Below are positions 1 through 18,408 of a DNA stretch of 21,915 nucleotides, in pieces; position 1 is the first letter of the stretch, and each line of letters starts with the position of its first letter. Under the pieces are notes generated by a model. That model worked only from the letters and a program-made list of their open reading frames with translations. It did no database searches and was not told the DNA's origin. The position numbers and the translations under genes were made by a program. This stretch comes from a virus: IMG/VR virus record IMGVR_UViG_3300036801_000098, positions 1 to 21,915 of that record; one strand, written 5' to 3'.

Positions 1-404
1 CGCCCATTGCCTCCAGACGCGATGTGCGCCCCGCAGAATCCTGTGTCACTCGTCGCCGCGATAACCGTGAATCCAGTGATTCTCCAAGCTGTCTGGGAAG
101 CAGAAGTGACGTTTATAAGATACATAAACCCGTTGCAGGTTTTATTGGGTTCGTCGTCTATGATCACCGTCTGCCCAATGCCCTGTCCTTGAAGGGTTAT
201 GGCATGGCTCATGTTGAGCGTCGAAGTCCAACTATTCGATCCACCGATGGTTGTCGATGTACAGGTGGGGATGATGACCGTATCGCCATCGACGGAAATA
301 GCGTTTTGCGCGGACACGTCCGCATAGGAACACGATGCCGCTGTGCGCGTCGTGGCGAAACAGGAGGGCGCGATCAGCAACAGAAGAAAAGTTAGTTTTC
401 TCAT
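1..404 (-). CDS. Secreted parallel beta-helix-like protein, 3' end cut by window edge
   Basis: The start is ATG at 404-402, overlapping the stop of the upstream gene as ATGA, so the two are translationally coupled. The reading frame is open to base 1, giving 134 residues with the C-terminus outside the window. Residues 1-18 (MRKLTFLLLLIAPSCFA) form a signal peptide with a basic start, a Leu-rich core and a small-residue cleavage site. The mature part has the pattern of a right-handed beta-helix: DGDTVIIP, then ITLQGQGIGQTVI, then alternating hydrophobic strands with Cys pairs. Such folds occur in pectate-lyase-like enzymes and in phage tailspikes. No catalytic residues can be assigned from this fragment. 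It is the last visible member of a run of five signal-peptide genes. I am confident that it is a real exported protein, less so about its role as depolymerase, spike or secreted enzyme. Confidence 0.7.
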   Translation of the reverse strand, partial: MRKLTFLLLLIAPSCFATTRTAASCSYADVSAQNAISVDGDTVIIPTCTSTTIGGSNSWTSTLNMSHAITLQGQGIGQTVIIDDEPNKTCNGFMYLINVTSASQTAWRITGFTVIAATSDTGFCGAHIASGGNG

Positions 405-2536
405 TGCAGCCACAAGGCATTCCCTGCCGTTATTGACGTGATTGCATCCCCGTAATTCGCTTGCTCCCCGCCGCACGTTGCTCCGGGCAGCACCGTGTAG
501 TAAGCATCACAGGGACGCGAGCAAACTCCAGCCTCTTGTCCGTCATAGGCGTTGTCTGAAAGAGACACGAGTCCCTGATTGACGTTTTGGAAATCTTCTG
601 TCACCCAGAAGTTCAGACCAACCGCCTGAATCGTGTTGTTGAAGCTGGGTATCGTGAAAAGGTCGTTCGCTTCATCAAACCATCCCTGACCGCGCGCTGC
701 TTGGCTTGGGTAATTGATGGCGCCAGTGGGCTTACAGGAATAGTCCGAGTCAATGTTTGCAGGCATCACATTGAACATCGTGAAGGGCTTATTCCCTATG
801 TACTGCGTGTGATATTGAAGGCGGGCAAGCCATTCAGTCTGAGAACTAGCTAGGATGTGCTGGAATCCGCCTGTAAAGAATCCATCCACGTAGGGGGCTT
901 CTCCTGCGTCGAACTTGCTGAAAGCTGAGACTCCGTAGCTGCCTGTCACGTCCAGGCCGAAGTAAGGGAGATGTGAGCCGGCCGCAACTAAATTAGTGCG
1001 CATCGTCTGAAAGTATTCAGCGGCAAGCTGAGACACCCAATTATCGAGGTCCGCTCCAAGGTTCGCGTTTGCATTCGGCGCACCGAAGCCGCCACCGCCA
1101 TTCTTGCAAGCCGTATAAATCGCATAGCTGGGATTCGGCCCTTCCAGGCACCATGAGTTCGTTCCCACCCAAGAAGTATTTGCTCCGCTCTCATCCATGA
1201 GCCCGGTGCCGCCCTGCATCCATCCGCCATACTGGTAGCTGATGGTGATAGGCGTAGTATTTGCCGGTGGGCTTACGAAATTGATCGTTACCGCGCCCGT
1301 CGTGTAATTGATTGTGCTGGTCGCCGGCGTGATGAGGTTTGCTACCGAGCTCCCCAGCGTGCCTGTGTTTGCTGTGCTAGTGAAACAGAGCACGGCGGGA
1401 GAAACATGAACCCAGGGGCAATCCCCCATCTGATCCACGCCACCGACAAATATTTGAATGCTGAAAGGGTCTATATTCCCGTGCGCCGCGGTGTGGGTAA
1501 ATGTTGTGGTGGTGCCGTCGCCCGTGCCGAACGATTCAGCCGTTACCTGCGTGGCGGTTGAATCGAACGTGGTGTAGGTCGAACCCCACGCCGTATTGAG
1601 TGCTCCAATCGTCGTGTACTTCTGCTTCAGGTAATCGCGCAAGCTGCATGGTGCTGAGATCGAACAAGTCGTTACCGGATTAAGTGCCTGTGTCTTGGAA
1701 AAGTTCTGCGTAATCGTATAAACCAGTTTCTTATTTCCGATGTCCGTTCCGCTGTTGTAGGTCTGCACGGGTGAAGTCAGCAGTGTAGTCCAAGCTGGAT
1801 TCGGCGCTGTTTTACCGGTGACGAAATCGGGCGTCGCCCCCGCCCCCGAGAAGAAGTCAGAATCGTCCGTCAGGACATAGGCTACCCAAGGACTGTTAGT
1901 TCGTATTGCCGTAGTGCCTGGATTGGTATGATCTGCGAGTTCTGCCGCCCACACGGTTGACAGACCCGGATCAAACACGTCGAACAAGGCGGCGCCGCGA
2001 TAGCCTTTCCAGTTGGAGTTCGTCGCTACAATGGAATCCTTGATCGCGCTCGTGATGAAGTTACCCACGTTCTGATAGGCATTCTCCGCTGGTTTCGATT
2101 CGATGATGTAGGGTAGAGGAATAGGCTGTGTATGCCCAGGCCACACGCAGCTCGAGCAGGTTGCCAGAGGTTGAGCAAAGCCCACGGAATCCTGCCCTAC
2201 AGAATTGAATCCCCAATGCGTGACTCGCTTCAGCGTTTGCCACACCCAATTGAAGTTGGCGTCTCCGTACTTCGTGAGAATTATGGGAAAGAGATTGTTT
2301 CCACCCGTGCATGGGCTAGGAGTCGGATTCGGCGGAGTTCCAATCCCTATGCTCATGGAAATAAAGCCATGCCCAAGGGGAGTGCAGAACCACCATTTAT
2401 TGCCGATCTGCTCAACGTGGAAGTAAGGCAGCGTCACCGCGCAGGTCACGTCTGTCCTGCCGCCGTAGATGTCCAGCGTAGGCAGGGCGTGAGCCGCAGG
2501 CGCGACGAGCAAGAGAAGAATGGCTAGACGCTTCAA
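401..2536 (-). CDS. Secreted glycoside-hydrolase-like protein with an inserted phage tail-type beta domain
   Basis: I chose TTG at 2536-2534 as start: it overlaps the previous stop (TTGA), has AAGGGAAA just upstream, and gives MKRLAILLLLVAPAAHA, a clean signal peptide, at residue 1. The product is 711 aa. Residues 45-65 (NKWWFCTPLGHGFISMSIG), 107-113 (HWGFNSVG) and 185-190 (FDVFDP) resemble the N-terminal half of the TIM barrel in GH42/GH50 (agarase-like) hydrolases, as does SLRDYLKQKYTTIGALNTAW at 298-317. Where relatives carry an acidic catalytic pair there is YVLTDDSDFF (220-229), so the acid/base residue is uncertain. Residues about 335-437 (GTGDGTTTTFTHT, then INYTTGAVTINF, then TPITISY) match a beta module common in phage tail proteins. 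Many Cys pairs (CSSC, CSRPC) suit an oxidising compartment. The likely role is cleavage of a surface polysaccharide, but this is inferred. Confidence 0.65.
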   Translation of the reverse strand: MKRLAILLLLVAPAAHALPTLDIYGGRTDVTCAVTLPYFHVEQIGNKWWFCTPLGHGFISMSIGIGTPPNPTPSPCTGGNNLFPIILTKYGDANFNWVWQTLKRVTHWGFNSVGQDSVGFAQPLATCSSCVWPGHTQPIPLPYIIESKPAENAYQNVGNFITSAIKDSIVATNSNWKGYRGAALFDVFDPGLSTVWAAELADHTNPGTTAIRTNSPWVAYVLTDDSDFFSGAGATPDFVTGKTAPNPAWTTLLTSPVQTYNSGTDIGNKKLVYTITQNFSKTQALNPVTTCSISAPCSLRDYLKQKYTTIGALNTAWGSTYTTFDSTATQVTAESFGTGDGTTTTFTHTAAHGNIDPFSIQIFVGGVDQMGDCPWVHVSPAVLCFTSTANTGTLGSSVANLITPATSTINYTTGAVTINFVSPPANTTPITISYQYGGWMQGGTGLMDESGANTSWVGTNSWCLEGPNPSYAIYTACKNGGGGFGAPNANANLGADLDNWVSQLAAEYFQTMRTNLVAAGSHLPYFGLDVTGSYGVSAFSKFDAGEAPYVDGFFTGGFQHILASSQTEWLARLQYHTQYIGNKPFTMFNVMPANIDSDYSCKPTGAINYPSQAARGQGWFDEANDLFTIPSFNNTIQAVGLNFWVTEDFQNVNQGLVSLSDNAYDGQEAGVCSRPCDAYYTVLPGATCGGEQANYGDAITSITAGNALWLQ

Positions 2537-3375
2537 AATAGTTTCCCTTTGGGGCCGCGCCGGTTGGATGCAGCAGGGTCTGAAATCAATGTTATTCCCA
2601 CTTGATTTTGGGCGAGTCCTGCGGGGCTTTGGTGAAAAGACCAAACTTTAGAAGTCGTAACGACAACCGCTACCGATTCAATAGCGGTCGCGGTGGTCGA
2701 TTGATTGTCGGAACCTTGCGCCGGAATTGCGTCAAACACAAAGCAAGTTGATGGGCAACCTGTGACGCTACCAGGAGCAAGCACCGGATTGCTGCCGCTG
2801 ATAGTTACGGCTGTCGAGAAAACATACTCAGAAGCGCTCGCGAGAGTCCCAGAAAGAGCGGTGATAAATGGATCGCCACTGCAACACGCCGAATCCGTGG
2901 TACTTGCGTCAAGACAAGAACTTTGGTGAATATTAGAGACTTCCTGGGCATAGGTTGCTGTGATTCCAGCCATCGAAGCGCCCATATCCAGCGTGATCTG
3001 AATTGCGTTTGTAGGGCTTGTTATATCCCCGCCACAAGCATAGAAAATTCCGGTGAAGTATCCTGGGGGGGCAAAGACAGAGTTTTGAATTGAACCTGCC
3101 TTGTGCCAGGTGATTGTTGCTCCGGTGACGGAGATGTTGCCAGTAGCGCGATCGGTTGATCCGGCTTGTTGGTGATAAGCCAGAATGAGCGCATTAGTCG
3201 CGGTGTAATCCGATGTGCAGCCAGTAGAGCCGCCAGAACTTCCAATCGTGATGATGTAATTCTGCTTCGCAGCTCCCCCGTTCACGCTCTTGCAGGTCTG
3301 AATATTCGCGGGCGTGACGGCGCGTACAGGCAGCGCGCAGAATAGCAGGGCGAGAAGTAGTTTTATTGGTCGCAT
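2533..3375 (-). CDS. Secreted 280-aa beta-rich protein, function unknown
   Basis: ATG is at 3375-3373, overlapping the upstream gene's end by 13 nt. Residues 1-19 (MRPIKLLLALLFCALPVRA) are a signal peptide. The mature protein is rich in Ser, Thr, Gly and Ala, with repeated short hydrophobic strands (IQITLDMG, ITATYAQEV, YVFSTAVTISG). It resembles the beta-sandwich proteins seen in soil-bacterial and phage secreted adhesin-like proteins. There are several Cys residues, including SACCSGD and GCPSTCF, probably disulfide bonded. The last residues (NRRGPKGKLF) are basic, and the stop overlaps the TTG start of the hydrolase-like gene, implying coupled expression. I do not recognise a named family. 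Given the neighbours it may be an accessory or binding partner of the hydrolase or fibres. Confidence 0.65.
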   Translation of the reverse strand: MRPIKLLLALLFCALPVRAVTPANIQTCKSVNGGAAKQNYIITIGSSGGSTGCTSDYTATNALILAYHQQAGSTDRATGNISVTGATITWHKAGSIQNSVFAPPGYFTGIFYACGGDITSPTNAIQITLDMGASMAGITATYAQEVSNIHQSSCLDASTTDSACCSGDPFITALSGTLASASEYVFSTAVTISGSNPVLAPGSVTGCPSTCFVFDAIPAQGSDNQSTTATAIESVAVVVTTSKVWSFHQSPAGLAQNQVGITLISDPAASNRRGPKGKLF

Positions 3376-6326
3376 TCGAGTGTCGCCGAAACAAACTTGG
3401 CCGTTGCAACAGTCGAGACATTCATCGCAATTATGTCGTTGGCTGTAACCGTAGTTGTCGTGAAATCGCTCACCGTCGTTGAATGAATTGCCGTGCCGCT
3501 GGAAATCGCTACGCCGCTCGTGTTTATGGAATTGCTCACGGTCGGGATCGCGGTCCCTGTCGCAATCTTCCAGAACTTGATGGTGATCGTGCCTGCGTCA
3601 ATCAGGATGTTGTAGGCCGAAATGGTGCAGGCGAAGGGCACCGTCATGTAGTCGGTTGCTGTCGAGCCTGCCGTGATTGAGTTCGCGCTGCCAGGATCGC
3701 CGTAGGAGAAGACGAGGCCACGAGTCCGCACATTGGCTGTCACGGTGATATTCGGGGTCGTTCCACCGCTTGACGCTGCTCCGCTTGAGCCTGTTACTGC
3801 CGTGACAAATCCACCGGCACTGGCTCCGACCGCATCAGGCGACAGGATCGTCGTTGCTACTACCGCTGGGGCCGTGACAGTGGATTCAGCGAGGAATGTC
3901 TGGGTTCCAGTTGGCTGTACCGTCGAACCAGTGTCATCCACATCGCCCGCAACCGTCGCGGATGGAATCAGCCAATGGCCCGCCGTAGTGTTGTTGGTGG
4001 GAATGACGTTGCAATGAGCCGCCCAGCAAATCGTGGCTGGATTTCCAACCGTTACTGTGCCGAGTGCTACACCTAAAACACCTTGCGTCGTATTCGTGGC
4101 GCATATCTGCGCTTTGTTGGTTCCTGATCGGCAAGCCAACTTATTCGCCGTCACGCCGCCTGTATCGACTGTCCACTGGTCGTAATTGCCGGATGTGATC
4201 GTGTTGAGGCCGTTGGGAGTTTGCGTGGGACTTGTGCCGGTATCGGTGACGCTGGAATCTAGCGGTGCCACGCCCGCACCGCCGCCCTTCGTGAGCTTGT
4301 TAGCACTGAGAGCGCCTGACGTGGCGAGTTGCGAAGTGCTGGAGAAATAGGGGATGCCGCCCGAGGTTCCGGTTGTGGTCAAGCCTAGAGTGCCGGAAGT
4401 TGTCACGGGCGAGCCCGTCACGCCGAAGATGCTTGCCGCGGGAACTGATAGCCCTATGCTTGTTACTGAGCCGCCTCCGCCCGTTCCTGTTATGGATTGA
4501 CACCCGAAAGTATGGGTGGAATTGTCGTAGGAAGTGGCATGGGTTGAATCGCCGCAGCTTGATCCACCATTTATTTGTTTCCAGGCACTCGTATTTAGCG
4601 CCGTCGAAGTTAAGAGATAGTCCGGTCCGGCTGCATTCGTCGTAATCGCGAGAGTTCCGCTAGTTGTAATCGGAGAGCCCGAGACAGCAAATCCACCTGG
4701 AACCGTCTGGGCTACGCTTGCGACGCTTCCCCCACCACCGCCAGCCCCGCTGATGACTCCGCAATTCGCGTAGTAATTCGCGTTGTCCGAATAAAGGAAG
4801 CAGTAGTTTCCTGCTGGGACATCGAGAGTCGCACTCCCGTTGACTGTGCTAACCGTCGGTGTGACGGTGACGGTTCCCGATCCCTGTGCGTTCGTTAGAA
4901 CCATCGTGAAGCTATTGGCAAAGCCTGCCGATCCCGCTTGCGACAAAGCAACTGCCGTTGCACCCGATGCGGCGGTGTAGCGCACATCGCTCACGCGATC
5001 GGTCGATAGAATCGTGTCGCTATTCCCTGTCACCGTGCGCACTGGAACACCCAAAGTGCAATTGCCTAGTGTCGTGGGTGTCTGGAAGCAAATCACATCG
5101 TTGGTCGCGGGCGTTGTGAACGTGACGGGAATCGTTTGTATGCCGCAGACGTTTGGCATGAGATTCGTCCCGCACAAATCCTGTGCCAGCTTGATGAATC
5201 CTTCCTGCGAAGTAGAGGCTTCAGGGCACTCGAGCGAAATGTCCGATGTGGGCACACCGTTGTCGGTTTGGAAGAAACAATTCAGGAAGTTGGCCTGCGC
5301 TGCGGGAGTTGTGTTGCTGAAATTGTCGAGTGTTCCCGCGACTGTCACGCCACCTACCTGAATTGTTTGCCCCGAACCGTTTGGTCCGCCCTGCACATCG
5401 GAGATAAACACGTCAACGGTAGCGTTCGTTCCCGGCCCAGCGTTGACGTTCTGGGCGATCCCAAGCTGTTGCACGCCAGTCGGGCAGATTGCCCCCGCAT
5501 CGTGACCCTGTGCATTTGCCGAAGAGGCCACGATGCAATCATTCACGACGGACGTATTGTCGAGAGTTATCGGGCAGCTTCCGATTTTGCAAAGCATCGA
5601 CGTTCCGCTTGTCCCGCCCCCCGCATAGACGACGCCTACGATCTTCGTAGTCTGCGCGGCGGGTAGGTTGATGCAGTTTCCGTTCGCATCGCGTGTCACT
5701 AGCAATCCATCCGCTGTGCCACTGGCACTGTTCTGGCATAGGAACAGAACCAACGGCTGCGATGTCGGATTCGCGTTCTGAATGATCCCGTTCGCCAATA
5801 GAGTCGGAGCATTGCCTATGTCCGTCGGGTCGGTAAACATCGCATAGTTGTTGGCTGTTCCGGCGCCATTTATTCCACCGCCAGGAGGGGGAATAAAACC
5901 GGTCGAGGAAAATGTGCTCGCTGCCGATGCGGTGATTGCCGCCTGGACGGTTCCCCCTCCATAGGAAGAAACACGCGCGCGAATCACATAGACTGACGAC
6001 ACGTTGAATCGCCAGGCGCCGTTTGCTGTCGCGGAGCTCACTGCGCCAGTGCCCGCTACTGGCGTTCCGGTGATGGCCGTGAACGGTGAACCACTCGGTC
6101 CCGAACCTGTGCTCGCTTCGAATTGCACGGTCGCCGTCCACGTTCCCGAAAGTTGGATAACCGATGAAGCTGCATCCTTCGGGACGTTCACAAAAAGACA
6201 GGCGTTCGCCGTAGTGCAGGCGCCGGTGTCCTGCGCCGTGAGGTTTGCGGTCGCAGGAACTTGTTGTGCGGCTGCCGGCACGACGAGGAATGCCAGAAAC
6301 GCTGCGAGAAGCCACAGCCTTTTCAT
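3363..6326 (-). CDS. Large fibre-like protein with Sec signal peptide (987 aa)
   Basis: The start is ATG at 6326-6324, because GGAGG lies 5 nt upstream and the residues that follow (MKRLWLLAAFLAFLVVPAAA) make a signal peptide; an in-frame ATG at 6338 is a weaker choice. Residues about 25-115 are a beta module with QDTGACTTANACLFVNVP and SSVIQLSGTWTATVQFE, shared with the next gene upstream. The centre carries fibre-type repeats: VSGSPITTSGTLAIT near residue 550 and VTGSPVTTSGTLGLTTTG near residue 630, a pattern common in phage tail fibres. The final ~125 residues (from RGLVFSYGDPGSAN to ECDQ) look like a compact receptor-binding tip with strands and Thr/Ser loops. The oddity is the signal peptide, since ordinary tail fibres fold in the cytoplasm. 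Fibre/adhesin identity is fairly secure; attachment to a virion is not shown. Confidence 0.7.
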   Translation of the reverse strand: MKRLWLLAAFLAFLVVPAAAQQVPATANLTAQDTGACTTANACLFVNVPKDAASSVIQLSGTWTATVQFEASTGSGPSGSPFTAITGTPVAGTGAVSSATANGAWRFNVSSVYVIRARVSSYGGGTVQAAITASAASTFSSTGFIPPPGGGINGAGTANNYAMFTDPTDIGNAPTLLANGIIQNANPTSQPLVLFLCQNSASGTADGLLVTRDANGNCINLPAAQTTKIVGVVYAGGGTSGTSMLCKIGSCPITLDNTSVVNDCIVASSANAQGHDAGAICPTGVQQLGIAQNVNAGPGTNATVDVFISDVQGGPNGSGQTIQVGGVTVAGTLDNFSNTTPAAQANFLNCFFQTDNGVPTSDISLECPEASTSQEGFIKLAQDLCGTNLMPNVCGIQTIPVTFTTPATNDVICFQTPTTLGNCTLGVPVRTVTGNSDTILSTDRVSDVRYTAASGATAVALSQAGSAGFANSFTMVLTNAQGSGTVTVTPTVSTVNGSATLDVPAGNYCFLYSDNANYYANCGVISGAGGGGGSVASVAQTVPGGFAVSGSPITTSGTLAITTNAAGPDYLLTSTALNTSAWKQINGGSSCGDSTHATSYDNSTHTFGCQSITGTGGGGSVTSIGLSVPAASIFGVTGSPVTTSGTLGLTTTGTSGGIPYFSSTSQLATSGALSANKLTKGGGAGVAPLDSSVTDTGTSPTQTPNGLNTITSGNYDQWTVDTGGVTANKLACRSGTNKAQICATNTTQGVLGVALGTVTVGNPATICWAAHCNVIPTNNTTAGHWLIPSATVAGDVDDTGSTVQPTGTQTFLAESTVTAPAVVATTILSPDAVGASAGGFVTAVTGSSGAASSGGTTPNITVTANVRTRGLVFSYGDPGSANSITAGSTATDYMTVPFACTISAYNILIDAGTITIKFWKIATGTAIPTVSNSINTSGVAISSGTAIHSTTVSDFTTTTVTANDIIAMNVSTVATAKFVSATLECDQ

Positions 6327-6337
6327 CGGTGCCTCCA

Positions 6338-7918
6338 TCAGTTCGCTGTCGGAATGCAGTGATAATCGAATGTGACAGTTCCCGAAACTTTGACAGTTAT
6401 CGTTAGCGTCGTCGTGGCTGGAGTCACCCAATAGACGCCCACTGCGGTGGGATCGCTCGTTGGCGTGGCAGTGCAAACCGGAGCCGCGAGCGTATATGGT
6501 GTAGAAAATGTCACTGAACAGGTGGTCGAGGATGAAACCGCGCAGGTGCCCGCTGAGATAATGTTTGCATCGCTTAAACCCGTATAATTGAAGGAATGAA
6601 CAGGCAGTAACGCCTGATACGCTCCAAAGCCGGTTGCTCCGTCTATGATTGCGGCATACGCCTTGCTGTTGGTATCCGCTCCCGCCGTTCCATAAAGTGT
6701 TTTGATAGTGCCACCCGAAGTGCGCGGGTGGTACACGATGGATTGAGCAAGCGAACCATTGGCGGTCAACACCGGATTCAAAGTTATGCACGCCCCTACG
6801 TTCGCAGCGCTTCCGTCGCTCGTCGCGGCCGTGTCGCAACTAACCCCCGAAGTCCAAAAGTAAGGCCCACCAGAAACCGCCACTGGTTTGCTGATTTTTA
6901 TGGCAGGCATGTTGCCAGAGGCGGAGGCGTTTACTGTCGGTTGCGCCGTCCAACCCCCAGCTATGTCTAGTGCTGTCCCTTGGTCTGCGGTATTTTGAAT
7001 ATTCAGGTCAACCTCATCGCTTTGCACAAAAGAGGCTGCATGCCCGGAAAGAGTCTCAGCCAATGAATTGACACCCCAACATTTCACGCCGGTAACTGTG
7101 CAAACTCCTTGGAAATATCCGCCGACGCCGTTCGTGCTCGTGGAAGATACATTCGCGTAACCCGCTACCGCAGTGGCCTGCGTCGCTGTTGAACCCGCCC
7201 CGATCGTCACGCATCCGGTGATGCCTTCTGTGTCGGCCGTGCCGGTTCGGTTGAAAACAAGCCATTCGGTTGAAGGACTGCAACTATTGAGATTCCCGGC
7301 GACGATCGGCCCGTTTACTCCGGGCGTTGTGTTCGTAAAAACTCCGGTGGCAGTGAGCGACCAGGGCAGATGAGAACCGAATGCCGTCGTGGGCGTGGCT
7401 GCGGGATTACCGATCAGATCGAGGGTGTAATCGCTCGCGACTGCCACCACCGCACCCGTTCGTCCAAATACGCTGGAAACTGCTCCCCCGGAGGAGCTTG
7501 CGCCTGTTCCGGAGGAGCCCGTTGAAAGTGTTATCGCTGCAACTATTGGTCCGCTTGAAAAGGCAGAACATCTGACGCGAATCTGCGCGAGGCCCGAAGC
7601 CGTCACGCGCCACGAACCGACTGCGGTTGCAGAAGTGACAGCCGTACCACCGGCGAGCGGGGTAGCCGAAACCGCTACGAATGTGCCCCCTACGCTGGTG
7701 GTCCCTTCGAATTGAAGCGTGCCCGTGAAGGTTCCGGTGAGTTGGATCACCGACGCGGCCGCGCTGCCTGGGACGTTGACGGTGAGGCAAGCACCGGCGG
7801 TGGTGCAGGCGCCAGAATCGGAAGCTGTCAGATTGGCCGTGTTGGGAATGGTCTGAGCCCGGATGTGTGGCGTAAGCCCAAGCCCGAGGAGCAAAAGAAA
7901 AACCGCTATTTTCCTCAT
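6338..7918 (-). CDS. Fibre-like protein with Sec signal peptide (526 aa)
   Basis: ATG at 7918-7916 has a strong AGGAGGT site about 7 nt upstream. Residues 1-22 (MRKIAVFLLLLGLGLTPHIRAQ) form a signal peptide. Residues about 23-118 are a beta module with SDSGACTTAGACLTVNVP and SVIQLTGTFTGTLQFEG, clearly paralogous to the module in the next gene downstream. A Gly/Ser linker follows, then SSVFGRTGAVVAVASDYTLD, a motif that often precedes the shaft of phage fibres. The rest is Thr/Ser/Ala-rich beta sequence with scattered Cys. The end (LTITVKVSGTVTFDYHCIP) resembles the terminal strands of phage-encoded fibre tips. It is the first gene after the inserted HNH gene and its stop shares one base with the alternative ATG of the next gene, so it belongs to the same operon. 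Confidence 0.7.
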   Translation of the reverse strand: MRKIAVFLLLLGLGLTPHIRAQTIPNTANLTASDSGACTTAGACLTVNVPGSAAASVIQLTGTFTGTLQFEGTTSVGGTFVAVSATPLAGGTAVTSATAVGSWRVTASGLAQIRVRCSAFSSGPIVAAITLSTGSSGTGASSSGGAVSSVFGRTGAVVAVASDYTLDLIGNPAATPTTAFGSHLPWSLTATGVFTNTTPGVNGPIVAGNLNSCSPSTEWLVFNRTGTADTEGITGCVTIGAGSTATQATAVAGYANVSSTSTNGVGGYFQGVCTVTGVKCWGVNSLAETLSGHAASFVQSDEVDLNIQNTADQGTALDIAGGWTAQPTVNASASGNMPAIKISKPVAVSGGPYFWTSGVSCDTAATSDGSAANVGACITLNPVLTANGSLAQSIVYHPRTSGGTIKTLYGTAGADTNSKAYAAIIDGATGFGAYQALLPVHSFNYTGLSDANIISAGTCAVSSSTTCSVTFSTPYTLAAPVCTATPTSDPTAVGVYWVTPATTTLTITVKVSGTVTFDYHCIPTAN

Positions 7919-7950: not shown

Positions 7951-8391
7951 GTGAGAATAACTAAGCCTTGTCTCAAGTGCGGTACTGAATTTAGAAGTCA
8001 AGCCTCGAAGAATAGACAGTTCTGTTCCCTTCGATGCGCCTATGCTGCGCGACCGCCTGCTTCTCTCTTCTGCAAATGCGGCGCTCCGCGGAGAAAGAGC
8101 GGGATGGATTGCCTTGCCTGCCACACCGCCCATAACAACTTGACGCGCAAAAGATGGGCCGATTTCACGCCAGAAGAGAAAGTAAAGCTGGGTGCGAGAG
8201 CCCATGCGAGCATGGCCCTCAAGCGCGGGCAGATCACAAGAAGGCGCTGCCAGATTTGCAGTTCTCCGAAGTCCCAAATGCATCATCCCGATTACTCCAA
8301 GCATCTTGAAATCGTCTGGCTCTGCCGGACACACCATCTGGATGTTCACCGGGGCCTGATTGCGCCCCCGGATGTTATTGTGGTACGTTAG
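7951..8391 (+). CDS. HNH homing-type endonuclease
   Basis: The start is GTG at 7951 with GGGAG just upstream; an in-frame stop at 7939 rules out a longer form. The 146-aa product begins with zinc-finger-like cysteines (CLKCGTEF, FCSLRC, FCKCG, CLAC). It ends with a treble-clef HNH nuclease core: CQIC near residue 110, then MHHPDYSKHLEIVWLC and RTHHLDVH. The paired HH, the central Asn-less HPDYSK stretch and the final HH are typical of free-standing phage HNH enzymes, which nick or cut DNA to spread themselves. It lies on the opposite strand to all structural genes, and its stop overlaps the capsid gene's stop by four bases. It therefore probably entered as a mobile intron-less homing gene. 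The target site is unknown, possibly the flanking capsid/fibre junction. Confidence 0.85.
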   Translation: MRITKPCLKCGTEFRSQASKNRQFCSLRCAYAARPPASLFCKCGAPRRKSGMDCLACHTAHNNLTRKRWADFTPEEKVKLGARAHASMALKRGQITRRRCQICSSPKSQMHHPDYSKHLEIVWLCRTHHLDVHRGLIAPPDVIVVR

Positions 8392-9425
8392 CTAGTCAAC
8401 TGTGGGATCGCGTCAATCCAGCGAGTACGCGCTGTCCCTTGTACGAAGGGCGGAGGCGTAAACACCAGATGAGCCCTGGTAGCGACCCACGCTCCGATTG
8501 TTGCGGTCGGATCGTAGGACGACGACGGCGCATCGGTGACGATGTTCGTCTTGATCATCTTCCAGTCGGCTTCGCCAAATTCGGTGTCTCCGGGCACACG
8601 CATCACGAGCATCAGGAAGCCGTACTTTGCTTGCATGTACGTGCGGTATCCGGTTTTGCCGCCCGAAAGGCTGGCGGTTGCAGTCACGAACGGAGTAATC
8701 CCGAACGAGACGCCAAGGCCAGGGCCAATTTCCATGCGCTTCCACTGATTCGTCACGCCGGCCACTTCCTCGTAGCGCCCAATCTCTGAATACTTCCAAA
8801 GGTCGGCAATCGAGGCGTTGACTGTGACTGCGTTCGAAATGTCGTTCAGTAGGAGTGGGTGAATCTGCCCACCGTAATCCTCCCCCTTGATCGGCATCGC
8901 TGGCAGGTTGAAGAGTTGATTCTTCATCGTGCGCAGCACGTTGATGGTCAAGAGATAGGCCGGGGAACCGCCGGAAATGAGCGCGTTCTGGCCTACGGTG
9001 GTGTCTGTGTTGTTCTGCACGTCGAGGCTCGTATAAGCCAGGTTGTTGATGGTGATGCCGAGCTGATAGGCGAGCAATTCCGCCGTCGACTTGGCCTGGT
9101 TGGGATCGAGCGATGCAGCCGCCGAGAATGCGGACCAGTTCGCGAAGGCGTTGTACTCCGCGATCTGGGCATTCACGAAGGTTTGACCGAAATATTCTGG
9201 GGAACCGATTACGCCATCGGCCGACGCAGGAATCGTGTCGGTGATGAGGTCGTAGGTAAACATCGTGCGGTTGACGCCGGTGTGCAGCGCCTGTTCGCGT
9301 TGCTCAGCGGCCCACACGAATGCCGCAGTGTTCGCCATTAGGGGCGGAATGAAAGACGCATCGTAATGGACGATCTGCGCCAACATGTTGTTGGCAACAT
9401 TGTTTGCTGCCGGATTTGCGGACAT
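8388..9425 (-). CDS. Major capsid protein, N4-gp56-like
   Basis: ATG is at 9425-9423 with GAGG about 5 nt upstream. The 345-aa product is of normal size for a phage coat protein. The pattern ELLAYQLGITINNLAYTSLD in its first half, a middle IHPLLLNDISNA and a C-terminal AHLVFTPPPFVQGTARTRW resemble N4-gp56/P22-type coat proteins with an HK97 fold. The N-terminus (MSANPAANNVANNMLAQIVHYDASF) is consistent with a scaffold-assisted coat rather than a protease-processed one; no delta domain or protease gene is seen. It follows the scaffold gene after 15 nt, as in most podovirus-like head modules. Function: forms the icosahedral shell around the packaged DNA. The family call is from pattern recognition and would need a structure or profile match to fix. 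Confidence 0.75.
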   Translation of the reverse strand: MSANPAANNVANNMLAQIVHYDASFIPPLMANTAAFVWAAEQREQALHTGVNRTMFTYDLITDTIPASADGVIGSPEYFGQTFVNAQIAEYNAFANWSAFSAAASLDPNQAKSTAELLAYQLGITINNLAYTSLDVQNNTDTTVGQNALISGGSPAYLLTINVLRTMKNQLFNLPAMPIKGEDYGGQIHPLLLNDISNAVTVNASIADLWKYSEIGRYEEVAGVTNQWKRMEIGPGLGVSFGITPFVTATASLSGGKTGYRTYMQAKYGFLMLVMRVPGDTEFGEADWKMIKTNIVTDAPSSSYDPTATIGAWVATRAHLVFTPPPFVQGTARTRWIDAIPQLTS

Positions 9426-10310: not shown

Positions 10311-10627
10311 TGTGTCATCTCCATTTCATTTTTAGATTGCCTGCTGCGAGCTTCTTCCCCTTCCTGCAAAGTGCGCCAGTTGAGGTCGATTTCCTTCCTC
10401 ACGAGTTCAAGGGTGAGCTTCATCGCGAATGCCACCGCGCCGATTCCATCGAGCTTCGTCACGCGCGCGGGATCGTCAGGCTGCACGCTGTGAACCTGCT
10501 CGAGCTGCTGCTGGACGTGACCGGCCATAATCTTTTCGATCAGCACTACCATGCCCGGATGCCTTGTGATCGAGCCGAGGTCTGAGCGCTCCGTAGGCGA
10601 AAGTTTTATGGGGTCGTGTTGCTTCAT
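10307..10627 (-). CDS. 106-aa helical protein between portal and scaffold, unknown
   Basis: ATG at 10627-10625 and the stop at 10309-10307 both form ATGA overlaps with the neighbouring portal and scaffold genes, so it is tightly coupled to head assembly. The product is helical and charged: MKQHDPIKLSPTERSDLGS, then hydrophobic HPGMVVLIEKIMAGHV, then amphipathic VQQQLEQVHSV, then KLTLELVRKEIDLNW. There are no Cys, TM or catalytic motifs. Small helical genes in this position are common in podovirus-like genomes and usually have no assigned function. A head-completion or assembly factor is a reasonable inference. Real gene: high confidence; role: unknown. Confidence 0.7.
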   Translation of the reverse strand: MKQHDPIKLSPTERSDLGSITRHPGMVVLIEKIMAGHVQQQLEQVHSVQPDDPARVTKLDGIGAVAFAMKLTLELVRKEIDLNWRTLQEGEEARSRQSKNEMEMTQ

Positions 10628-12726
10628 CCGACGAGCCCCGTTCCTTCCTGCTGCTGCCCGATCTGCAAAGCGTGTTCCGCCTGGAGTACGGTTGTTTTCT
10701 CGCCCGCGCGGGCGAGAGCTGAATCGAATATCTGCTGCGTCTTGGCTGCCTGTTCCTGATTGAATTTGGCCTGCTGCGCCTGATTCTGTTGCGCAGCGAT
10801 GCCAGCCTTCGAGTTCATGTCGCGCCGCTTCTTTTGCTCCGCCGTCATGGCAGTAAAAAATTCCTGGCTGAATTTGAAACCGGAGATTTCCGCGAAACTC
10901 TTGAACCAGTCTTTGAAGTTGAACTGCATATCCGCTTCGGCTGCCGCGCTAAGCAGTGCCGGGTTAATCGCAATCTGTTCGATCACTGCGAGGAATTGCG
11001 CCATTTCGCGCTTCGGCCCCAGGTGCGCGCCTGCCAGGACTTCGTATTTCATCTGCGCATTGCGGAAAGCGACATGATCGAGCTCGAAGTCCGCCATCTC
11101 TTTTTCGGTGAGGATTTCGCGGATGGATTGCGTAGGCAGAAGTTCGTTGTTCAAATTGTCCATGATGTAAAGCCAGGGAGTGAAGACTTGCCGAACGAAT
11201 CGCTCGGTGGGACCGTCCAGACGGCCGGCAGCCGCCGCGCCCACCAGACCAGCCCCGGTGCCCGAGCGCATTCCAGTCGATTGAATGCCGGCAGCGCCAG
11301 CACCCATCGTTACCTGTTGATTTGCACCAGCAGATTCCAGCGATTCGGCTTTGTTGTATTGCAGGATTTGCCACACTTCCGGCGGTACTTTGGGCATCTC
11401 GAGCAACCCGATTCCCTTGCGCACATCGTCGCCCTGGATCTTCAGGACGTCGCCCGATCCGAGCACGATTTGCTGTGTTGGCGTGTTCCAGCCCTCGATC
11501 ATGGTGAAAGTGGGATGCAGGGGGTAGGCGGCGACTTCCAGGGCAAGATTCTCGGTTCCCTGAGAAACCATCTGCCGCGTGCCGATTACCTGCCCGAGTC
11601 CTTGGCCGATGAGGGAATCGCGCAGCGGACGCCATACGCTCGAGAGATACGTGTGCCCCGTGCCGCCGGCACCCTTCGAGATTTCAGCGAAAGGATTCTC
11701 AGAGTTGCGCACGAGGATGCAGTCATTGCCGTGGCAGAGCACGACGATAATCGCGTTGGCATCCTGGCGCTCGACGAGTACCAGCGTGGCGCGAAGAGGG
11801 TCAGCGCTGGTGTTGAAATTCGCCGGCATGGCGTGAACGAGTTGGGCGCGCATCCCTTCCGGCATGGTCATTACCGGACTATCGGACTTGGCCGTTTTCT
11901 TGTCGCGGAAAAACCAATCGAGAAGGATCTCTTTCGAGGGGATTGTGTATTCTTCGTTCTGCCTCAGGGCTTCGAGGTCGCCCCAATCGGCATAGGCCCA
12001 CTCAACCGTCCATTTCGCCTTGCGGATATCGCACTCTTTGCAGGAGGGGTCTGCGCCTACGCGGGCGAGGTCTTTTTTCTCGATGAAGGGGCGCCGCACT
12101 TCTCTAGTGACATACTCAAACTCAATAGCGTCTGAGTCTTCCGTCTCTACGACGGTCTTAAAGCCTGTGGGCGATACATCGGTGATCGGCTGGCCTTTGC
12201 GCTTGAATTTCCTAAACCTTCGCGTCTCTTCGTGCCAACCCCATTTGAGGAACACTGTCCCGCGCAGCCCGCAATCGTAAATCGACGCCTCGATCGTCTC
12301 CGCGAAATTCATGTCTTCGAGTTGGTAGGAGAAAATCGCAGTCTTGGCCCGGATCACATCGTCCGATGTTCCTGGTCGCGGTCGCAAAAGAAACGGCGGG
12401 TCTTCGTAGGTCATGCCGCTTACAATCTTGGGCACAACTGCATCGAGCGTATTGGAGAGAAGGAAATTAGGGACGCACGCCTTTGTGCCGACGCCCTGGC
12501 CCCAGGGAGACATCGACTGCGGCGATTGCACTAGGGTATCGGCATCGGTCCACCGCGCAGCCCAATTGGTCGCGTTGATGTACGCGAACCAGGTGTCCAT
12601 GTCGCGCATGGTGATTTCAACGGCCGCGGCATCGGTGTACTGATACCCGGTTTCGGTGAACTTCACGTCCTTGCGGACGATTTCGTGGTTCTGGGGAATG
12701 ATCAGGGCTTCGGCCACAGGCCTCAT
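10624..12726 (-). CDS. Portal protein, large P22/podovirus-like type
   Basis: I start at ATG 12726-12724, which overlaps the stop of the 55-aa gene (ATGA) and has GGGGAAAG upstream; an in-frame TTG at 12738 would add four residues. The 700-aa product has the size of P22-like portals. Features include an aromatic N-terminal region (DTWFAYINATNWAARW), a wing-type section with NFAETIEASIYDCGLRGT and FLKWGWHEETRRFRKFKRK, and a stem/clip region (SVWRPLRDSLIGQGLGQ, then GTRQMVSQGTENL). The C-terminus is Gln/Ala-rich and helical (NQAQQAKFNQEQAAKTQQIF), like the barrel of P22 gp1. It would form the dodecameric channel through which the terminase pumps DNA. Its place between terminase and scaffold supports the call. 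Confidence 0.85.
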   Translation of the reverse strand: MRPVAEALIIPQNHEIVRKDVKFTETGYQYTDAAAVEITMRDMDTWFAYINATNWAARWTDADTLVQSPQSMSPWGQGVGTKACVPNFLLSNTLDAVVPKIVSGMTYEDPPFLLRPRPGTSDDVIRAKTAIFSYQLEDMNFAETIEASIYDCGLRGTVFLKWGWHEETRRFRKFKRKGQPITDVSPTGFKTVVETEDSDAIEFEYVTREVRRPFIEKKDLARVGADPSCKECDIRKAKWTVEWAYADWGDLEALRQNEEYTIPSKEILLDWFFRDKKTAKSDSPVMTMPEGMRAQLVHAMPANFNTSADPLRATLVLVERQDANAIIVVLCHGNDCILVRNSENPFAEISKGAGGTGHTYLSSVWRPLRDSLIGQGLGQVIGTRQMVSQGTENLALEVAAYPLHPTFTMIEGWNTPTQQIVLGSGDVLKIQGDDVRKGIGLLEMPKVPPEVWQILQYNKAESLESAGANQQVTMGAGAAGIQSTGMRSGTGAGLVGAAAAGRLDGPTERFVRQVFTPWLYIMDNLNNELLPTQSIREILTEKEMADFELDHVAFRNAQMKYEVLAGAHLGPKREMAQFLAVIEQIAINPALLSAAAEADMQFNFKDWFKSFAEISGFKFSQEFFTAMTAEQKKRRDMNSKAGIAAQQNQAQQAKFNQEQAAKTQQIFDSALARAGEKTTVLQAEHALQIGQQQEGTGLVG

Positions 12727-12890
12727 CTCTTTCCCCAATGGATCGGATTATGTATCTCGTGGTGCCGTACCGCTAAATCCGCTTCCTGCTGCGCGATGAT
12801 ACGGACCCGCATCTCCCGGCGGAAAGTCCACCTACCCCAAAGCTGCCACCCGAGCGATTGAAGGAGTCTGTCCCATCTTGAAATCATCAT
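12723..12890 (-). CDS. 55-aa basic, Trp-rich protein between terminase and portal
   Basis: This short gene fills the gap between terminase and portal exactly. Its ATG (12890-12888) overlaps the terminase stop as ATGA, and its TGA (12725-12723) overlaps the portal ATG as ATGA. The product starts MMISRWDRLLQSLGWQLW and contains RREMRVRIIAQQEADLAVRH, so it has an amphipathic Trp/Arg-rich helix followed by a charged helix. I do not recognise it. The perfect double overlap argues strongly that it is translated. A packaging or connector role is possible from position alone. Confidence 0.6.
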   Translation of the reverse strand: MMISRWDRLLQSLGWQLWGRWTFRREMRVRIIAQQEADLAVRHHEIHNPIHWGKR

Positions 12891-14905
12891 AGATGGATAC
12901 CTGAATCACCAAAGATCCATTGAGGGCCGCGATCCCGCACAGGTCCAGCCTCCGCCGGCATAGGGCGTTCGGGCGGCGGAGACTGGAAGGCTGTACGGTA
13001 TTCGGCGTCGGCGTGTTGACGCTGAAACTCGTCGCGCAGTTCTTTTGCTTCGCGGCGCTTGCGCTCGGGCTCTGTTTCTCTCTGCGCCTCTCCGGCAGGC
13101 AGTTCGCGCGGAATGATGCGCTGCAATTTCGAGATAGCGTCGGGAATGTCGTCTTTCCTGCGAGGCGAGAATCCGGTGAAACGCACAAACTGCTGCGTGG
13201 TGATTTCCATCCAGTCGCCGTCGACGAACCACAGGCGATCGTCTTTTATTAGCGTCTCGAGCCCCTTCACCCAATTGCGCTTCGAGCCTGCATTCATATC
13301 AATTTCGCGCCAGTACAGCGGCACCATGCTCTTGCGCGTCGCCATCGAGATGCGCTGGATCTCCATGCCGAACAGTTCCCACCCATGAAACTTCTCGATT
13401 TCCGTGTAAAGCGCGTCCCATTTCCAGTGCAGTTTCACCACTTCTTGCGCCGTCGCCGAATCGCGCCACTTGCCATAAGCCACTTCGAGGATGTACAGCG
13501 AGCGCGTCTCAGGGTCCGCCCATCCCACCGCTCCAACCGAATAGTCGGATTGCACCTTTTCGCCGTGCGCCGTGTCCCACCTGATAATTGGGCGACGCAC
13601 CCCCGTCAGGGGGCGCGGAACAGCTGTCAAAACAATCGTATGCCTCTGGATATCTTCGGCATCGAAGTGGACGAGAAGGTCTGATCCGGCCGGTTCGTTC
13701 AATTGCTGGCAGCGAAACTGCTTCTCGTTCTGCCGGCACTTCTTGATAAGCACACTAAACGGCATCTGCTCGGGGAAATACAGATCGACCATATGGGCCT
13801 GAAGCTGTTTGATCGGCAAAGCCGTAAAATCAGGCTTCACTGTCCAGGCCGAACGGCACAAATACTTCAGCGCGTTTGAATCGGGGTACTTCCTCCACTC
13901 CTCGATGCGCTCCCCATACCAGTCATCGGGGGCGTAGCGCGTCCCGAGATGATCCCTGAAAGCCCACTTGTCCGGGCGGTTCTGTGAGATGTTGTCGTAC
14001 TTATCCTTGAGCGAAGCCCTGGTTTCTTCGGTATTCGAGTTCTGCTCGTTTACGACGTCATCACCCTTCCAGACGTCGCAGTGCCATCCGGCGATCGCGC
14101 CATCGATCGAATTGACAGTGAGCGTCGGCGTACCGGGCTGAGGGTGCATACGCGCGGGAGTTGTCAGAGGGGCGAGCGAAGTGCCATCTTCGCCAGTGAC
14201 GATGTATTCGGGGAAGAGAGCCTGAAAATAGGTGACTTTGGTGCCTTCGGGCTTGTAGAAGAAGCCTTTTACTTCTTTCAGGAATTTGCGCGAGAGAGGA
14301 CCGGAACCAGTGATGATGAAAACGCGAATGTCCGGGCACGCGAGCATCCATTGCACGCAATCGACTTTGTTGGCTGTCGACTTGAAGGCGCCAGTCGGGC
14401 AGAGCTGCAACATTTCCTTCTCGGTGGCGCCGTTGCCCCTCTTCAGCGTGTCGATGTGCGCGCGCATTTCATCGAGATGCCAATCCTTGTGGTACACGCC
14501 ATCGAAGTTCTTTTCGACGAAGCAGGCCACCATTTCGCGGTGAACGTGCTCGACGAAGCCTGAGCCCGATTCCGTGGTGCCAATGCAGTCGTGCCCGAGC
14601 CAGTAGAGGTCTTTGCGCGCTCTGTCGCGGAGATCGAGCCATTCGCGAAATTTAGGGAAGTTGCGTTTGCCTTTGTAATAGCGTCCTCCGATCATTACAT
14701 CGAAGGGATGCCTCTGCATCTGTACGTTCCATAGTTCGTGCAGTCTTTCGAGCGGGCGGCATTCGGAGCGATAATAGAGGTCTTTGACTTCTTCGCCTTC
14801 GGGGAGAATATCGTAGAAAAGCGATGTCCATGCACTGGAATGCTTGGGCGCTTTCTCGCCCTCGGTCGAGAGCTCGGTCAATTTGGCTTGTACCTTCTGC
14901 ACCAC
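12887..14905 (-). CDS. terL: Terminase large subunit (TerL)
   Basis: The start is GTG at 14905, overlapping the upstream gene by 28 nt. The 672-aa product has an ATPase half with Walker A PTGAFKST (170-177) and Walker B DVWKGDDV (277-284). The nuclease half has an RNase H-like first acid in RPIIRWDTA (D444), candidate middle acids around E502-E515 and the final acids in RRKDDIPDAI (D585, D586, D589). Between them RCQQLNEP (398-405) is a motif typical of this TerL type. The C-terminal ~70 residues are charged and Pro-rich. TerL powers DNA packaging through the portal and cuts the concatemer. No small subunit is recognisable nearby; one of the upstream small genes may take that part. Confidence 0.9.
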   Translation of the reverse strand: MVQKVQAKLTELSTEGEKAPKHSSAWTSLFYDILPEGEEVKDLYYRSECRPLERLHELWNVQMQRHPFDVMIGGRYYKGKRNFPKFREWLDLRDRARKDLYWLGHDCIGTTESGSGFVEHVHREMVACFVEKNFDGVYHKDWHLDEMRAHIDTLKRGNGATEKEMLQLCPTGAFKSTANKVDCVQWMLACPDIRVFIITGSGPLSRKFLKEVKGFFYKPEGTKVTYFQALFPEYIVTGEDGTSLAPLTTPARMHPQPGTPTLTVNSIDGAIAGWHCDVWKGDDVVNEQNSNTEETRASLKDKYDNISQNRPDKWAFRDHLGTRYAPDDWYGERIEEWRKYPDSNALKYLCRSAWTVKPDFTALPIKQLQAHMVDLYFPEQMPFSVLIKKCRQNEKQFRCQQLNEPAGSDLLVHFDAEDIQRHTIVLTAVPRPLTGVRRPIIRWDTAHGEKVQSDYSVGAVGWADPETRSLYILEVAYGKWRDSATAQEVVKLHWKWDALYTEIEKFHGWELFGMEIQRISMATRKSMVPLYWREIDMNAGSKRNWVKGLETLIKDDRLWFVDGDWMEITTQQFVRFTGFSPRRKDDIPDAISKLQRIIPRELPAGEAQRETEPERKRREAKELRDEFQRQHADAEYRTAFQSPPPERPMPAEAGPVRDRGPQWIFGDSGIHL

Positions 14906-15075: not shown

Positions 15076-15236
15076 CAGAAAAAGAAACTCAGGCACCAAA
15101 AGAACAATCCGGCTGCCACGAGCTTCATGCGATAAGGCTCGATCGGTTGAGGCCAGCCGAACGCCGCGAGCGCAAACAGAACCAGAGCCAGGACCATGAA
15201 AATCAAATGCAGAGGGGCGCCGTGCGCGTTTTGCAT
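15075..15236 (-). CDS. 53-aa two-TM membrane protein, holin candidate
   Basis: ATG at 15236-15234 shares a base with the stop of the His-rich gene, and its own stop shares a base with the next ATG. The product starts MQNAHGAPLH, then a first membrane segment LIFMVLALVLFALAAFGW, a short turn with PQPIEPYRMK, and a second segment LVAAGLFFWCLSFFF at the C-terminus. Two short TM helices joined by a charged turn resemble class II holins, but no lysin is visible nearby. Small membrane proteins of other roles are equally possible. Translation coupling on both sides makes it a real gene. Confidence 0.6.
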   Translation of the reverse strand: MQNAHGAPLHLIFMVLALVLFALAAFGWPQPIEPYRMKLVAAGLFFWCLSFFF

Positions 15237-15469
15237 CACATTCCTCCCGCGGGAGGAGCTGCACCCGCTCCCGCTTCCATCGCTTCCTCGCCAGGGGTTT
15301 CAGCCCCTGCGCCGAGATGCTGCTGCATTGAATCCATCATCCCGTCGTGATCCATCACCGCGTGCTCCACATCTTTCTTGGAATCCTCGCGGTGGTGGTG
15401 GTGAATCGTGTGCGAGCCGTCGTGGTGGTGGTGGACCGTGGTGTGGCTGTATTCGTGTCCCTTAGCCAT
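15236..15469 (-). CDS. 77-aa His-rich small protein
   Basis: ATG at 15469-15467 lies within the end of the upstream gene (8-nt overlap) and has GAAGAGG upstream. An in-frame upstream start is possible but lacks this site. The product begins MAKGHEYSHTTVHHHHDGSH, continues with a second HHHH and ends Ala/Gly/Pro-rich (GAGAAPPAGGM). Two HHHH clusters eight residues apart suggest a metal-binding surface (Ni, Zn, Cu or similar). Acidic/Met sequence in the middle (HAVMDHDGMMDSMQQHL) adds more ligands. Similar His-rich small phage proteins exist with no known role. The CAC/CAT codon runs also make the + strand look like a GTGGTG repeat. Confidence 0.65.
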   Translation of the reverse strand: MAKGHEYSHTTVHHHHDGSHTIHHHHREDSKKDVEHAVMDHDGMMDSMQQHLGAGAETPGEEAMEAGAGAAPPAGGM

Positions 15470-15641
15470 TTTTGCGCCTCTTCTCGTAGGCCGACTGATA
15501 CTCACTCTTGCCAGCCTTGGCCTTGCGTTTCTCAGACAGCATGATCGCCACCGCCTGCTTCTGAGACTTCACAGGTTTGCCGCTGGAACCTGATTTCAGG
15601 GTCCCAGCTTTCCATTTGTGCAGAACCTCATCCCACGGCAT
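15462..15641 (-). CDS. 59-aa basic protein, DUF6496-like
   Basis: ATG at 15641-15639 lies five bases after the stop of the 197-aa gene. The product starts MPWDEVLHKWKAGTLKSGSS and contains KPVKSQKQAVAIMLSEKRKA, followed by a Lys-rich end. The pattern (short lead, Ser-Gly linker, KSQKQAVAIMLSE helix, basic tail) is that of the small DUF6496-type proteins seen in phages and bacteria. It is strongly basic, so DNA or RNA binding is plausible but unproven. No clear Shine-Dalgarno is visible, suggesting translation coupled to the gene before. Confidence 0.6.
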   Translation of the reverse strand: MPWDEVLHKWKAGTLKSGSSGKPVKSQKQAVAIMLSEKRKAKAGKSEYQSAYEKRRKNG

Positions 15642-15645
15642 CGGA

Positions 15646-16239
15646 TTAAGTCGCGGTGAGCGAGAACTGGCTCATCTTCCCTACGTTCAGGGCGTCTGAG
15701 ACTCCGAACGTGACGCCGAACACGAAATAGTAATTCGTAGTCGTCAGATTCACGCCAGTCAGGTCCGTTGCCGTGACGGTCCCCGAAACGCCGTTGCAGA
15801 CAAACACAGCCGAGAAAATCTGCATGACGCCCGAAACCGCATCGCTTTGCAGACGCGCACTGAACGACCACGGATAGTTTGCCCCGGTGGTAAGCGACTG
15901 CGCCGAGGCCAGGACAGCCATCGTGGTATTCGAAGTGGCAGTGAGCGACGTGCCTTGCTGGAACGCGAAGTTAAGCGTGGGCGATGTCCCGTGGACGAAA
16001 ACGTACCCGCTCGCTACCACAGCAATCGCCTGCTGCTCATACTGGCCGGTCCCCGGAATCATGACCGCAGATGGGGCTATGGGGGCGGTTGCGGCCGGCG
16101 ATCCCGTTCCAAAGATGGTAGGAATCCCCGAAAGGTTCGCAATCGCGTTGGGGAAAATCTTGGCGACTGTTCCTGTGCCGCCGACGCTTACCGGCGTGTA
16201 CGCACCAACTCCAGGTGCTACTGAGAAAGGCTCTGACAT
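15646..16239 (-). CDS. 197-aa putative virion structural protein
   Basis: ATG at 16239-16237 has a good AGGAGA 8 nt upstream. The product is uncharged and beta-rich: many Gly, Ser, Thr and Ala, with strands such as AIAVVASGYVFVHG and YYFVFGVTFGVSDAL, and no signal peptide. This composition is typical of head decoration or head-fibre proteins. It leads the late transcription unit, ahead of the small genes and terminase, and a promoter-like TTGACA overlapping a palindrome sits about 115 bp upstream. I do not recognise the family. A small-terminase identity is unlikely because no helix-turn-helix or helical core is present. Confidence 0.55.
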   Translation of the reverse strand: MSEPFSVAPGVGAYTPVSVGGTGTVAKIFPNAIANLSGIPTIFGTGSPAATAPIAPSAVMIPGTGQYEQQAIAVVASGYVFVHGTSPTLNFAFQQGTSLTATSNTTMAVLASAQSLTTGANYPWSFSARLQSDAVSGVMQIFSAVFVCNGVSGTVTATDLTGVNLTTTNYYFVFGVTFGVSDALNVGKMSQFSLTAT

Positions 16240-18198: not shown

Positions 18199-18408
18199 AT
18201 GAAAACTTACGACGTGGAGCTTGGATTAGATGTTCGCATGTATGCCTATGTGCGAGTTGAAGCGCGTAATGCGGCCGAAGCGAAGCGCAAGGCACTGAAA
18301 GCCAATGCTGCTGGGGATTGCATTTTCGAAAACTCATGCTTCGAGACAGACCTGGCCGAAGTAGTCTGCGCTTTGGCTTTAGAAGATGGCGAGGCGTCCC
18401 GTGGCTGA
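18199..18408 (+). CDS. 69-aa early protein, unknown
   Basis: ATG at 18199 with AAAGGGAG five bases upstream. The product starts MKTYDVELGLDVRMYAYVRV, then a helix EARNAAEAKRKALKANAAGD, then an acidic end. The strand-helix-strand pattern with AAEAKRKALKA is common in small phage proteins of unknown role. Its 3' end overlaps the ATPase gene by 23 nt (or by 8 nt if the ATPase begins at GTG 18401), so the two are likely co-translated. The 72 bp before it hold no gene. Confidence 0.55.
   Translation: MKTYDVELGLDVRMYAYVRVEARNAAEAKRKALKANAAGDCIFENSCFETDLAEVVCALALEDGEASRG

Follow-up and report, generated by a model that had tools for sequence, protein, structure and literature searches.

The window analysed here, the whole of a 21.9-kb stretch of soil phage DNA (IMG/VR record IMGVR_UViG_3300036801_000098, positions 1 to 21,915), carries a late operon on its minus strand, in which genes for the terminase, the portal, a 106-aa protein, a scaffold-like protein and the capsid protein are followed by a cassette of five genes (Table 1). 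An earlier note on this DNA had drawn attention to a five-gene block at 1-7918, left of the capsid gene, and both its span and its minus-strand positions are confirmed; 134 residues of the fifth gene lie inside the window. Placed right after the capsid gene, the cassette occupies the spike/fibre slot of the virion-gene operon, and relatives have equivalent slots. No holin or lysin was recognised beside it within the window, and a Pfam search with the 146-aa ORF that separates it from the capsid gene gave zero matches. A consensus scan, whose reach is that of known promoter types, returned one weak promoter-like match before the cassette, where five are expected by chance. Since the cassette runs on from the late structural operon, display of their products on the surface of a lysogenic cell, one of the uses put forward in the note, is not specifically supported. 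By its sequence, the portal groups the phage with podovirus-like relatives; its only match among phage isolates is Tunturi_3 of Tunturiibacter (Acidobacteriota), and the host is probably a member of the Terriglobales (Acidobacteriota).

Table 1. Genes of the late operon and cassette, with the predicted signal peptides (arrow, predicted cleavage site) and their rule-based scores.
Feature	Position	Strand	Start or best match	Signal peptide	Score
Fifth cassette gene, cut by window end, possible beta-helix	<3-404	-	ATGA overlap with 711-aa gene (4 bases)		11.5
711-aa protein gene	401-2536	-	TTG start, overlaps preceding stop by 4 bases	AHA↓L	12.3
280-aa protein gene	2533-3375	-	Start overlaps preceding stop by 13 bases	VRA↓V	12.1
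987-aa protein gene	3363-6326	-	Strong Shine-Dalgarno	aa 1-20, AAA↓Q	13.8
526-aa protein gene	6338-7918	-	Shine-Dalgarno AGGAGG	aa 1-21, IRA↓Q	12.2
Intervening 146-aa ORF, HNH-like by eye	7951-8391	+	ORF list
Major capsid protein, directly upstream of cassette in operon	8388-9425	-	phrog_1357 major head protein, E 1e-4
Portal protein	10624-12738	-	SU10_portal, phrog_332
Terminase large subunit	12887-14905	-	phrog_38, E 4e-41

All five cassette N-termini are complete n-h-c signal peptides by a rule of our own, used rather than SignalP, which scores a positive n-region, an uncharged h-region and an AxA-type c-region. With scores of 11.5-13.8, and with starts anchored by a Shine-Dalgarno sequence or a stop overlap, the five signal peptides described in the note are confirmed. 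At scores of 10 or more the background of the rule is 0.6-0.8% (16 of 2845 shuffled proteins and 3 of 373 shadow ORFs), and these controls, together with conservation, rule out chance or a gene-call artefact. Signal peptides are not a general trait of P22-like phages either, as only one of 81 annotated virion genes in six proteobacterial members reaches a score of 9, nor of the window's own phage family, in which Tunturi_3 and the near relatives G002 and G003 lack the block. Among the 17 other genes of the window a single one scores, a Gly-rich 141-aa ORF on the minus strand at 20257-20682 (score 15.4), far from the cassette. Separately, a putative structural protein beside the tail spike of Xanthomonas phage PBR31 (L227:21906-22715) scores 9.75, and the trait may thus occur beyond Acidobacteriota phages.

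Behind its signal peptide, the 526-aa protein has an N-terminal domain with the XepA/YomS fold (the N-domain, aa 22 to about 135) and then a fibre-type body; the 987-aa protein follows the same plan, with a long fibre-type body and an N-domain 50% identical to that of the 526-aa protein. This shared domain and phage-fibre-like repeats, judged by eye, bear out the note's view of two fibre-type proteins. Whole-length orthologues of the 987-aa (63-72% identical) and 280-aa (69%) proteins stand in the same order, signal peptides kept, in L029, a record in which no terminase related to the window's was found. There the 987-aa orthologue apparently starts at an ACG behind a good Shine-Dalgarno sequence (L029:7332-7340), its signal peptide intact. 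Direct searches of viral contigs with the 987- and 711-aa proteins gave no relatives, the window's cassette proteins had no confident match to a named Pfam or PHROG family, no sequence relatives of them were found in the PDB, and the AF2 model of the 280-aa protein reached a pLDDT of 32.

The 711-aa protein, a polysaccharide hydrolase according to the note, is probably a polysaccharide-active enzyme, judging from sequence features seen by eye and from a match to GH42 (Pfam) that, at 12.7 bits, lies below the cut-off of 21. Relatives of nearly full length, 28-38% identical, are found in 17 of 249 Terriglobales genomes. These host relatives fall in no Pfam family, and the complete ones bear signal peptides and the same internal domain, so that the 711-aa protein may simply be secreted. 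In some Terriglobales genomes the relatives are adjacent or present in several copies (G166:C84, G102:C16, G015:C34).

An AF2 model of the N-domain, built from 41 sequences, is a confident C2-like beta-sandwich (pLDDT 92). The closest solved structures are XepA (6i56_B, Z 15.1 over 102 residues) and YomS (6i5o_A, Z 14.7), both at an rmsd of 1.6-1.7, followed by a baseplate component of Klebsiella phage KP1 at Z 9.5, with matches below about that value taken as background; a profile of 35 N-domain sequences gave zero matches to PDB chains at E ≤ 1. XepA of PBSX and YomS of SPbeta (PDB 6i56 and 6i5o) are of prophage origin and share the fold at 14-15% identity, but they lack the long fibre body of the 526- and 987-aa proteins and are described as lytic-cassette proteins. 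XepA is reported to be exported during PBSX development and to be absent from mature particles (PMC6834076), and the 526- and 987-aa proteins may likewise act away from the virion. The main rival to the interpretation favoured below is built on this precedent: an exported cassette with no place on the virion, its products secreted or held on the infected cell for polysaccharide cutting, release, a block to superinfection or matrix binding. Several small exported proteins encoded alongside the cassette, the occurrence of the 711-aa hydrolase-like family in host genomes and the lack of a cassette at this place in the nearest capsid relatives, G002 and G003, all count in its favour, and we regard it as a serious possibility, if one that falls somewhat short of even odds.

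Searching with the N-domain retrieved 58 viral loci. In about 40 of them a signal peptide immediately precedes the domain, at 30-60% identity, and signal-bearing genes often follow one another in runs of two to five. Core genes beside the loci vary: the window's portal/capsid type, P22-like genes with Hc3 and ejection proteins, and phrog_283 coat, phrog_156 portal and phrog_2 terminase types all occur, which indicates that the trait crosses phage lineages. A signal-bearing XepA-type protein lies between a gp4-like gene and Hc3 in G205, and a signal-less one after a gp4-like gene in L051. Two further signal-bearing proteins have matches of their own: one of 1038 aa (L033:4871-7987) weakly resembles the C-terminal domain of a K1 capsule-specific lyase tailspike (E 1e-4, below the cut-off), and one after the tail genes of G007 (L020:8791-9711) has an HpiC1-cyclase-like domain (E 5e-14).

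The mature parts of these proteins are rich in cysteine. With cassette-strand genes pooled over these phages, the median mature-part content is 2.06% in signal-bearing proteins (n = 78) and 0.72% in their signal-less neighbours (n = 293), about a threefold difference with p ~1e-13 (p ~5e-17 among proteins of at least 250 aa), and even counts are found in 49 of 64 signal-bearing (p 1e-5) against 65 of 146 signal-less proteins, all p-values being indicative because the pooled sequences are partly related. Within the N-domain common to the 526- and 987-aa proteins, a cysteine pair is present in 32 of 35 signal-bearing copies and in none of seven N-terminal signal-less homologues (Fisher p 4e-6). 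The many cysteine pairs claimed in the note agree with the pooled enrichment and parity and, in the window, with the even mature counts of the 987-aa (24 cysteines) and 280-aa (eight in the mature part) proteins, whereas the 526- and 711-aa proteins have odd counts. Taken at the level of sequence, cysteine content and parity fit exported, disulfide-bonded proteins.

Could the hydrophobic N-termini instead be assembly or membrane-anchoring segments of virion proteins assembled in the cytoplasm? Their positions in virion slots, the tailspike N-domain homology described below and the want of precedent for export of a large fibre in the literature searched would suit such segments. We nevertheless consider this improbable, as the N-termini have a textbook n-h-c layout with AxA↓Q, Q standing at +1 of the predicted cleavage site in 40 of 78 signal-bearing proteins, and as cysteine enrichment, even parity and new cysteine pairs confined to signal-bearing forms point to an oxidising compartment, not the cytoplasm. 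It is thus highly probable that the cassette proteins really are exported. The note's proposal of a phage-encoded exported set is upheld to this extent, by signal peptides conserved over about 40 loci, by the enrichment and parity of cysteine and by a cysteine pair that tracks the signal peptide; the choice between use at the cell surface or in secreted form and addition to virions turns on the relatives.

In the window's own clade, the capsid protein is 86-92% identical in three viral contigs, and relatives at this level of identity differ among themselves. Four signal-bearing genes (864, 518, 899 and 118 aa) lie between the capsid and tail genes of G001. In G002 and G003 there are none at that place, but both genomes encode a long signal-less fibre-like protein, of which G001 retains only the first 100 or so residues. 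From these sequences it looks as though the cassette replaced the distal fibre in G001, and the loss of that distal part argues against an exported cassette with no virion role.

Stronger pointers to the virion come from Terriglobales prophages. Their signal-bearing proteins of 469-709 aa, encoded after the hub gene, belong to the phrog_863-type tail fibres (L215, E 2e-25), and the first post-signal domain of these proteins has homologues in the N-terminal domains of tailspikes and fibres from other podoviruses. The combination of signal peptide and phrog_863-type tailspike N-domain is found in seven loci (L035, L040, L067, L077, L213, L215 and L216), and in the first four of these the signal-bearing spike stands in one run with a signal-bearing XepA-type fibre. 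In five outside phages, including Rhodoferax P26218 and Pseudomonas PAE2, the same domain opens the protein at residue 1-2 and both signal peptide and cysteines are lacking; in the alignment, the initiator Met of these homologues falls close to the predicted cleavage site of the signal-bearing copies. One of two co-varying cysteine pairs is present in all seven signal-bearing domains and in none of the five signal-less ones. By analogy with podoviral tailspikes in general, the domain is presumably the virion anchor.

Gene position tells a similar story. Signal-bearing genes of Terriglobales P22-like prophages occupy the slots after the coat gene, the hub (Hc3) and the ejection proteins, and it is in the last of these slots that P22-like phages such as Xanthomonas PBR31 have their tailspike. 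P22-like podoviral tailspikes and phrog_863 fibres (such as those of PAE2, P26218 and Pseudoalteromonas H6/1) sit in the same slots and share the N-terminal domain with the window's relatives, but they begin at that domain, lack signal peptide and cysteines, and are assembled in the cytoplasm. A signal peptide placed before a tailspike domain whose homologues do without one, together with the virion-gene slots, favours addition to virions over use at the cell surface or in secreted form, and both observations weigh against a cassette with no virion role. On the other side, the tailspike/fibre-homologous domain was not found in the window's own proteins, which bear the XepA-type domain in its place, and Tunturi_3, a related Acidobacteriota phage, manages without signal peptides. 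Three prophages also have a signal-bearing protein directly after the coat gene (L213:10907-11929, L216:12473-13495 and L215:14261-14998), two of them with a weak match to the phrog_1101 tail protein; it could be a head-associated exported protein.

Cultured phages of Tunturiibacter (PMC11924767) also carry comparable signal-bearing proteins. Signal peptides are found on gp12, gp13, gp14 (annotated tail spike), gp16 and gp17 of Tunturi_1, whose gp12 is identical to that of Tunturi_2, and on gp113 and gp114 of Tunturi_4, and on zero structural genes of Tunturi_3; in the text of PMC11924767 there is no mention of these signal peptides or of virion proteomics. Tunturi_1, _2 and _4 resemble the window in carrying signal-peptide spikes and fibres beside structural genes, but belong to different phage lineages. 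Tunturi_1 is infectious, yet nearly all its large fibre/spike-type proteins are signal-bearing and it has no obvious other receptor-binding protein, which counts against a cassette that never reaches the particle.

Relatives of the 711-aa protein in host genomes also suggest that the genes might be morons, host genes for secreted proteins acquired by chance that kept their signal peptides and have no phage role. We hold this very improbable, and it was disfavoured already by the 4- to 13-base gene overlaps inside the late operon and by the conservation of such genes, in runs of two to five, over several phage lineages. Moreover, while viral contigs carry the N-domain, its profile matches only 5 of 397 Terriglobales genomes, four of which also have a P22-like Hc3 gene and are thus taken to carry it in prophages; one copy belongs to a prophage deep inside a 1.16-Mb contig. 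Scanning GTDB bacterial genomes with an N-domain pattern gave zero matches, as did a wider sample from the phylum of G406 (0 of 297), and three matches in two genomes from the phylum of G405 include none with signal peptide and cysteines on a phage-like gene.

We propose that the cassette encodes late-operon tail-adhesion proteins, of the fibre/spike class and with at least one probably glycan-active enzyme, each bearing a working Sec/signal-peptidase-I signal peptide. Late in infection the proteins would cross the inner membrane unfolded via Sec, lose their signal peptides (in this group mostly at AxA↓Q), and fold and form disulfide bonds in the periplasm; attachment to finished virions would follow at cell lysis, most likely via the mature N-terminal domain. 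Cleavage and export, the virion location of the window's proteins and their joining at lysis are all steps that we infer from sequence. That exported tail-adhesion proteins end up on virions is, as a joint claim, an even bet, and the full reading, in which tailed phages of Acidobacteriota make spikes and fibres via Sec, disulfide-bond them outside the cytoplasm and add them to virions only at lysis, has in our estimate a probability of roughly 0.47.

In the textbook view, tailed-phage virions are completed in the cytoplasm before lysis. The open literature searched, which takes in few subscription papers or preprints, contained no precedent for a Sec-made virion component of a tailed phage, nor any virion proteomics on members of the group. 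The coat proteins pVIII and pIII of filamentous phages likewise are virion proteins with signal peptides that pass through the inner membrane, but those phages assemble during extrusion through the membrane, with no tail and no lysis, unlike the window's phage. Another comparison is with Streptococcus mitis phage SM1, whose tail-fibre-class proteins PblA and PblB also occur on the surface of bacteria but have no signal peptide and arrive there by phage lysis.

If the proposed route is correct, some phages finish their particles outside the cytoplasm, and two compartments share the assembly of the virion. Signal peptides before tailspike N-domains, with co-evolved cysteine pairs, occur in several lineages of phages of apparently one host group, and disulfide-stabilised adhesins of this kind would be suited to soil. 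Annotation pipelines could label such spikes as secreted bacterial proteins, and the route would raise questions of exclusion and of spike sharing between co-infecting phages. With Tunturi_1, _2 and _4 in culture, the reading is testable now.

Several other genes of the window are of interest in their own right. On the minus strand, a small His-rich protein (TTVHHHHDGSHTIHHHH) is encoded at 15236-15505, with look-alikes just upstream of the terminase in G001 and G005, and a 197-aa protein at 15646-16239, which has no Pfam match, is conserved at 40-79% in every member of the clade, G007 among them, and is possibly a virion protein. An AAA+ protein resembling clamp-loader/DNA_pol3_delta2 ATPases is encoded on the plus strand at 18386-19105, and VRR-NUC-like and YqaJ-like nuclease genes follow it at 20694-21146 and 21477-21914.
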